This document shows, piece after piece, positions 1,983-29,781 of a DNA stretch of 30,999 nucleotides. Numbering within the stretch: the stretch's first letter is position 1; each line of letters begins with the position of its first letter. The notes under the pieces were generated by a model that searched no databases, had not been told where the DNA came from, and was given only the letters and a program-made list of their open reading frames with translations. The stretch lies in IMG/VR virus record IMGVR_UViG_3300021247_000331, positions 1 to 30,999 of that record, one strand, 5' to 3'. This DNA comes from a virus. The translations under genes were made by a program, and so were the position numbers.

Positions 1983-2029
1983 AAAAGAAAAATCCCTCAA
2001 TTAAGCTGCTTGGAAGACTTAATCAAGGG
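1983..2029 (-). terminator. Intrinsic terminator of the late/lysis transcript and candidate sRNA
   Basis: A 12-bp stem with two G-T pairs joins 2018-2029 to 1994-2005, with a 12-base loop. It is followed on the minus strand by ATTTTTCTTTT. It is the first terminator downstream of the endolysin gene. Confidence 0.75.
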
Positions 2030-2090
2030 TTATCTTTTTCTACAATCTTTGTGAATCAGATAATCAAATCCGATTCCAAGCAGATTGATT
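1983..2090 (-). ncRNA. Candidate small RNA of about 105 nt
   Basis: A -7 box (2095-2102) lies just upstream and an intrinsic terminator ends the block. The 5' part folds into a long hairpin: 2043-2048 with 2082-2087, 2049-2051 with 2077-2079, and 2053-2061 with 2068-2076, only small bulges between. Ten bases of its 5' arm (2074-2083) are perfectly complementary to the loop of the terminator hairpin (2006-2015). This allows a pseudoknot, a fold switch, or pairing between molecules. It could instead be the 3' end of the lysis transcript with a chance -7 match. Confidence 0.45.
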
Positions 2091-2094
2091 GGCA

Positions 2095-2102
2095 CAAATA
2101 TA
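2095..2102 (-). promoter_or_regulatory. Putative -7 promoter box for the small RNA
   Basis: TATATTTG on the minus strand fits TAnnTTTG. It lies about 5-8 bases before the start of the structured RNA and 57 bases past the endolysin stop. The -33 region is only T-rich, so the call is tentative. Confidence 0.4.
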
Positions 2103-29607: not shown

Positions 29608-29781
29608 TTAGTTTGTTTTTAATGAATAATAATAATTTGCTTCATTGTACTCTTGGCTCATTATAATTGCATCGTGAACCTCGATGTTGTTGGTTAGTCT
29701 TTCGACTTGATCCATTAACCTTGCATTTTCTAATCTCAATGCTTCGTTAGCTTGGTTTAAATAATTAATTAAGTCTTCCAT
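29608..29781 (-). CDS. Small coiled-coil protein (57 aa)
   Basis: MEDLINYLNQANEALRLENA... with heptad-like Leu and Asn spacing through about residue 35, then a Tyr-rich end, 'EANYYYSLKTN'. The stop is one base before the ERF ATG. Function unknown. Confidence 0.6.
   Translation of the reverse strand: MEDLINYLNQANEALRLENARLMDQVERLTNNIEVHDAIIMSQEYNEANYYYSLKTN

Follow-up and report, generated by a model that had tools for sequence, protein, structure and literature searches.

Does a phage RNA whose first hairpin is complementary to the loop of its own terminator work by pairing with itself, or is the match an accident of an ordinary terminator? The question is raised by a minus-strand element in a 30,999-base virus record (the window, that is, the whole stretch analyzed), whose longer open reading frames (ORFs) lie on the same strand. 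Read 5' to 3', a Bacteroidetes-type -7 promoter box, TATATTTG (2102-2095), is followed by a bulged 45-nt hairpin (2087-2043) and an intrinsic terminator (2029-1983), in agreement with every coordinate that a first-pass annotation had assigned to these three parts. Its further observation of a ten-base complementarity is exact: kissing segment 1, CTGCTTGGAA (2074-2083), is the perfect reverse complement of kissing segment 2, TTCCAAGCAG (2006-2015), which accounts for 10 of the 12 bases of the terminator loop (2017-2006), and the 10-mer has no other copy within the window. The terminator combines a stable stem, with 5' arm CCCTTGATTAAG (2018-2029) and 3' arm CTTAATTGAGGG (1994-2005), with a U-rich tract directly after it, TTTTTCTTTT (1983-1992); a simple scan for terminators that admits only loops of 3-8 nt does not list this 12-nt-loop hairpin. 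The promoter consists of the -7 box alone, with no TTG at the -33 position, and transcription would start about 4-6 nt past the box, at the foot of the first hairpin, for a predicted product of about 105 nt. The minimum free energy (MFE) fold of -34.9 kcal/mol (z = -3.9) was equaled by none of 200 shuffles.

On the minus strand the element (2102-1983) lies about 60 nt past the end of a gene for an M15 peptidase endolysin (2632-2159) and is followed by about 360 nt without a clear ORF, by small ORFs and by NinG (736-194). From this position it would also stop late transcripts, which would fit an ordinary terminator of the late operon whose loop matches by chance; a match of at least 10, however, arises in 1.15e-4 of composition-preserving loop shuffles (about 1 in 9,000) in the window alone, and we regard this reading as ruled out by the covariation among relatives described below.

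Loci with related endolysins or NinG, viewed near a similar promoter, show the same order of promoter, hairpin and terminator, with segments that differ from those of the window yet are complementary to each other (GGCTAGAC/GTCTAGCC, GGATGCAA/TTGCATCC, GGACTCA/TGAGTCC and GTCGTCG/CGACGAC). A family descriptor, TANNTTTG, which places one segment in the 5' hairpin loop and its complement in the terminator loop ahead of a T-rich tail, matched 115 times in 2.7 Mb of sequence vs. 7 times in the reversed sequence. Manual removal of clear noise left 62 distinct elements, which between them use 36 different segments, from viral contigs and named Flavobacterium phages; they fall into four subfamilies: A (n = 24, including the window), B1 (n = 11), B2 (n = 13) and C (n = 14). 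Many of the contigs are fragments, near-identical copies were merged by exact sequence only, and the descriptor thresholds were chosen after the first examples had been seen, with a flank-only test and a loop-swap control as safeguards. In subfamily A the 5' arm of the first helix, P1, starts 1-6 nt past the -7 box in 24/24 elements, and the tail after the terminator stem holds on average 7.0 T in 9 nt vs. 2.7 expected from composition, the descriptor itself having required T-rich tails.

Because the descriptor also demands complementarity, the flank-only scans fixed the hairpin flanks, left the loop free and scored complementarity afterwards. Among matches with an upstream promoter, a kiss of at least 7 perfect pairs was present in 19/20 cases for subfamily A, where the exception (L251) forms 7 pairs including one G-U, in 8/9 for B1, where the ninth match (L230) has no terminator-like layout and was judged a non-member, and in 12/12 for C. 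At least 7 perfect pairs are therefore found in 39 of 40 true members and the last is accommodated by a single G-U, while flank matches devoid of a promoter gave 0/36. When loops were exchanged between elements with different segments, 4 of 873 combinations reached 7 pairs or more. The kissing helix of subfamily C is 100% paired across 10 distinct sequences, with double compensatory changes at 4 of 7 pairs, and that of B1 is 98.9% paired, with double compensatory changes at 5 of 8; the whole-structure covariation scores of both were reached by 0/500 shuffles and exceeded those of all slid versions. Isolates from a single sea area make the covariation directly visible, in that tooticki6-1 carries GTGAGACG/CGTCTCAC, snusmum9-1 GTGGAACG/CGTTCCAC and morran9-1 GTGAGAAG/CTTCTCAC. 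Since the P1 stem that flanks them hardly changes (ATCAAT/ATTGAT is conserved across the subfamily A alignment), the loops are what changes quickly in a 5' hairpin that is otherwise conserved. Together, these comparisons indicate that loop-to-loop pairing in the family is real and under selection, with compensatory changes in both paired segments that exceed the controls. The first-pass annotation had named loss of complementarity in relatives as the outcome that would count against its proposal and covariance analysis as the means to see it; complementarity is kept, with different sequences and with compensatory changes in the kissing helix, which strongly supports the central idea that the two segments pair functionally, in a pseudoknot or by kissing.

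Flavobacterium columnare phages such as FCV-1 carry elements (two in FCV-1), as do the Baltic Flavobacterium phages tooticki6-1, sniff9-2, mumin6-1 and snusmum9-1, with at least two each, and lillamy9-7 and morran9-1, with at least one each. Across nine longer records that were scanned, accepted elements score at least 31 and all else at most 29; no element was found in phages 6H and B124-14 or in the first 50 kb of phiSM and crAss002. BLAST against named phages recovered subfamily B and gave no match for subfamilies A and C. A B1 covariance model built without the kiss matches 6/6 phage records tested, and in phage records it detects B2 elements (E of about 3e-4 to 4e-3) and, weakly, one A element (E 0.006), so that the subfamilies may be related. 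Among host and prophage sequences, neither the B1 model, run on a class-level sample of 395 genomes, nor the C model, run on 64 genomes, found a convincing member, an absence that, given the shallow search, proves little. Related proteins and elements alike point to phages of Flavobacterium and relatives as the setting of the window. Rfam 15 returned no match at gathering score in the window and in eight related records, and chance-level matches only at a permissive threshold (E up to 10); our literature search, with limited reach into subscription journals, turned up no description of such an RNA, and the paper on the Baltic phages makes no mention of hairpins, terminators or non-coding RNA (PMC7077304).

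What the pairing may do is suggested by where the elements lie. In subfamilies B1, B2 and C the first start codon is found 7-69 nt past the terminator stem in 38/38 elements, most commonly at 14-19 nt, and the genes behind these leaders vary, encoding Lin1244-type proteins, DUF6291/DUF7833 proteins, NUMOD4/HNH endonucleases and small unknown proteins. At the level of sequence, layout, selected pairing and, for subfamilies B and C, leader position are evident; transcription, cis action and an effect on termination we infer. The explanation that we tentatively favor, with a probability of roughly 45%, is a portable self-kissing leader or attenuator RNA family that acts in cis in phages of Flavobacterium and relatives. 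An RNA of about 105 nt would pair its 5'-terminal hairpin loop with its terminator loop through 7-10 Watson-Crick pairs; the kiss would form while the terminator is being transcribed and set the frequency with which the polymerase stops, and would further lock both ends of the terminated RNA and so tune the stability of the released molecule. The pairing alone would matter, such that the loop letters could drift freely as long as they stay complementary. Two points weigh against an attenuator: the kiss could serve folding or stability only and, because it sits in the terminator loop, need not disturb the terminator stem; and members of the window's own subfamily seldom directly precede a gene: of the 21 subfamily A cases that could be measured, 20 have 240-433 nt before the next ORF, and L006 has 43 nt. 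Most relatives carry the architecture ahead of early genes (DNA-replication-like proteins, HNH endonucleases) and away from lysis genes, which, together with the 360 nt to the next ORF in the window, leaves unsupported the earlier idea that the element decides late read-through into NinG.

Several features of the surrounding sequence deserve mention in their own right. Some 240-390 nt devoid of a clear ORF lie downstream of the subfamily A element (1978-1630 of the window, minus strand). This stretch is conserved among several relatives (L004, L011, L012, L017, L018, L020, L021, L026 and L121), for example in TTTAAAGCACTAAAATGGGCTTCTAATGGTGCAACTGTGAACGAAACT, and its window copy contains two CATTCCGAAAGG repeats; it has no Rfam match, folds no better than shuffles in the window, and may represent a very short ORF, a regulatory region or a site on the DNA. 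A motif in the linker that joins the two hairpins, AAAA[C/T]ATT, in many cases directly ahead of the terminator stem, occurs in 14/14 C, 6/11 B1, 6/13 B2 and 0/24 A elements, where shuffling predicts about 0.4-0.8 per subfamily, and is possibly a protein site or a tertiary contact. Genes for free-standing NUMOD4/HNH endonucleases start right after a B2 leader in Flavobacterium phages (L182:11590-12168, L185:40354-41149), as if leader and gene formed a cassette. Depending on the phage, genes for similar proteins of about 70 aa (MANVK..FYGTEKSET / MANVKLIFQGTERSKTE) stand behind either a B1 or a C leader (L152 and L160 vs. L008 and L182), so leaders may be exchanged between phages.

Folding energies set subfamily A apart, with the reservation that the ViennaRNA nearest-neighbor energies omit kissing geometry and describe kissing complexes poorly. 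In B and C the kiss is predicted to be cheap, since both segments already sit in hairpin loops of the MFE fold and freeing them costs on average 0.2-1.4 kcal/mol vs. a duplex of -8 to -11. In subfamily A, the window included, the favored fold is instead a larger hairpin that hides segment 1, and freeing both segments costs 8.3 kcal/mol on average vs. a duplex of -11.7 (11.9 vs. -14.8 kcal/mol in the window). The window's alternative hairpin (2043-2087), its MFE state, hides part of segment 1 and competes with a second conserved pairing, that of the P1 5' arm AATCAA (2090-2085) with the P1 3' arm TTGATT (2067-2062), which presents segment 1 in the P1 loop and excludes the big hairpin, whose apical loop is that same TTGATT. 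In subfamily A at large, the two states would be mutually exclusive because the larger hairpin has ATTGAT as its apical loop, to which the conserved ATCAAT that directly precedes the segment is complementary. On these calculations the window copy may be bistable and subfamily A a two-state switch, in which the RNA can refold to the large hairpin that conceals segment 1, and the first-pass notion of a switch between terminated and read-through forms becomes plausible for the window's subfamily, with a cost of about 12 kcal/mol set against a duplex of about -15 and a competing P1 pairing. The subfamily A RNA, which ends 240-430 nt short of the next ORF, may function on its own as a stably capped small RNA or from a distance as a leader.

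A pure stability element would account for part of these observations and is, in our estimate, an improbable though serious competitor. The kiss would then tie the 5' hairpin to the 3' terminator hairpin in a compact, nuclease-resistant RNA with no control of termination, the product being a stable small RNA or a protected 5' end of an mRNA. In most members the P1 5' arm starts 1-6 nt past the -7 box, so that a hairpin would form the very 5' end of the RNA, and any complementary letters would suffice for such a lock, which matches what is observed. A simple lock, however, has no need of the conserved alternative pairing of subfamily A, and the U-tract and the placement 14-19 nt before start codons suggest gene control.

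The favored cis-acting leader has to be weighed, too, against pairing between molecules. On a 9,455-base contig (L228) five leaders lie on one strand, and their loops cross-fit by at most 5 nt, although non-fitting loops within one phage could reflect merely different subfamilies. That loops are complementary only to themselves, that the leaders of one phage do not cross-fit and that B and C leave both loops exposed would suit a homotypic regulation in trans, in which the terminated RNA kisses nascent copies of itself for leader-specific feedback, much as in pT181 attenuators or the P4 CI RNA; loop-loop attenuators and orthogonal sets of them do function in engineered form (PMC3753616). Each leader would in that case hold a private loop pair as an address tag by which the released RNA recognizes copies of its own leader, for gene-by-gene, protein-free feedback, and loop letters would diversify to stop cross-reaction between leaders of the same or of co-infecting phages. 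Proximity nonetheless favors intramolecular pairing, and a further conserved target of the P4 kind was found neither in four named phage genomes nor in the window. Immunity, moreover, is not expected in virulent phages, which we take several of the carriers to be. We therefore hold this joint reading, address tags included, to be rather unlikely.

Still further down in probability, and in our view doubtful, stands a trans-acting antisense small RNA directed at another phage mRNA or at a host mRNA, with the terminator loop only masking its seed. It could draw on a stretch of the window RNA (about 2026-2011) that pairs over 16 consecutive bases, one of them G-U, with 29765-29780, at the start codon of ORF 29781-29608. 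No other tested member, however, has a start-codon target clearly above shuffles (the best, in G452, scores 13.0 vs. a null maximum of 12.5), the shuffled RNA of one member reached 16.0, and the loop letters are too changeable for a fixed target; nor did four named phage genomes and the window contain a consistent second site complementary to the loops. The ORF at 29781-29608 encodes 57 aa, and the part of the RNA that pairs with it comprises the 5' side and loop of the terminator hairpin, a match that may be due to chance.

Among known systems, the pT181-type attenuators come close to the favored leader reading, as in them, too, a hairpin loop of the leader engages in kissing and an intrinsic terminator precedes the start codon; subfamilies B and C show both the loop-loop pairing and the intrinsic terminator in a 5' leader. 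Specificity in the pT181 type derives largely from loop and upper-stem letters, making orthogonal sets possible, as in engineered versions (PMC3753616). There, however, the kiss involves a separate antisense RNA from the opposite strand, whereas the family has both partner loops in one RNA, and a simple promoter scan of the region identified no antisense promoter. The P4 CI RNA, which causes early termination of phage transcripts (PMC4825925), and the P1/P7 c4 antisense immunity RNAs (RF01695) are likewise short phage RNAs complementary to other parts of their own leader, but the family has no second target outside the element and no Rfam match, and is unrelated in sequence and layout. The IsrK locus of prophage Gifsy-1 yields both a terminated small RNA and a read-through mRNA from one promoter (PMC4825925). 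The family would resemble it in this use of one promoter, and differs in its unrelated sequence and different host group. To our knowledge, IsrK has no self-complementary loop pair kept by covariation. The phi29-type pRNA, finally, is a phage RNA of about 100-120 nt with two mutually complementary loops whose letters differ between phages; these short loops (about 4 nt) link separate pRNA molecules into a ring at the packaging motor, whereas the family has several copies per genome, mostly before early genes and each ending in a terminator. Because the nearest systems either lack a self-contained covarying loop pair or need a second RNA or target, we place the elements as a new RNA family, a variant of kissing-loop and attenuator RNAs.

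In the literature searched, there is little on RNA regulation in phages of Bacteroidota. The exchangeable loop-loop match is the most striking conserved feature of these leaders, and it offers a clean handle, as each side can be mutated and compensated by the other. If the kiss does set termination, the family would be the natural equivalent of the orthogonal loop-loop attenuators built by engineering, and genetics in Flavobacterium and Bacteroides could draw parts from it.
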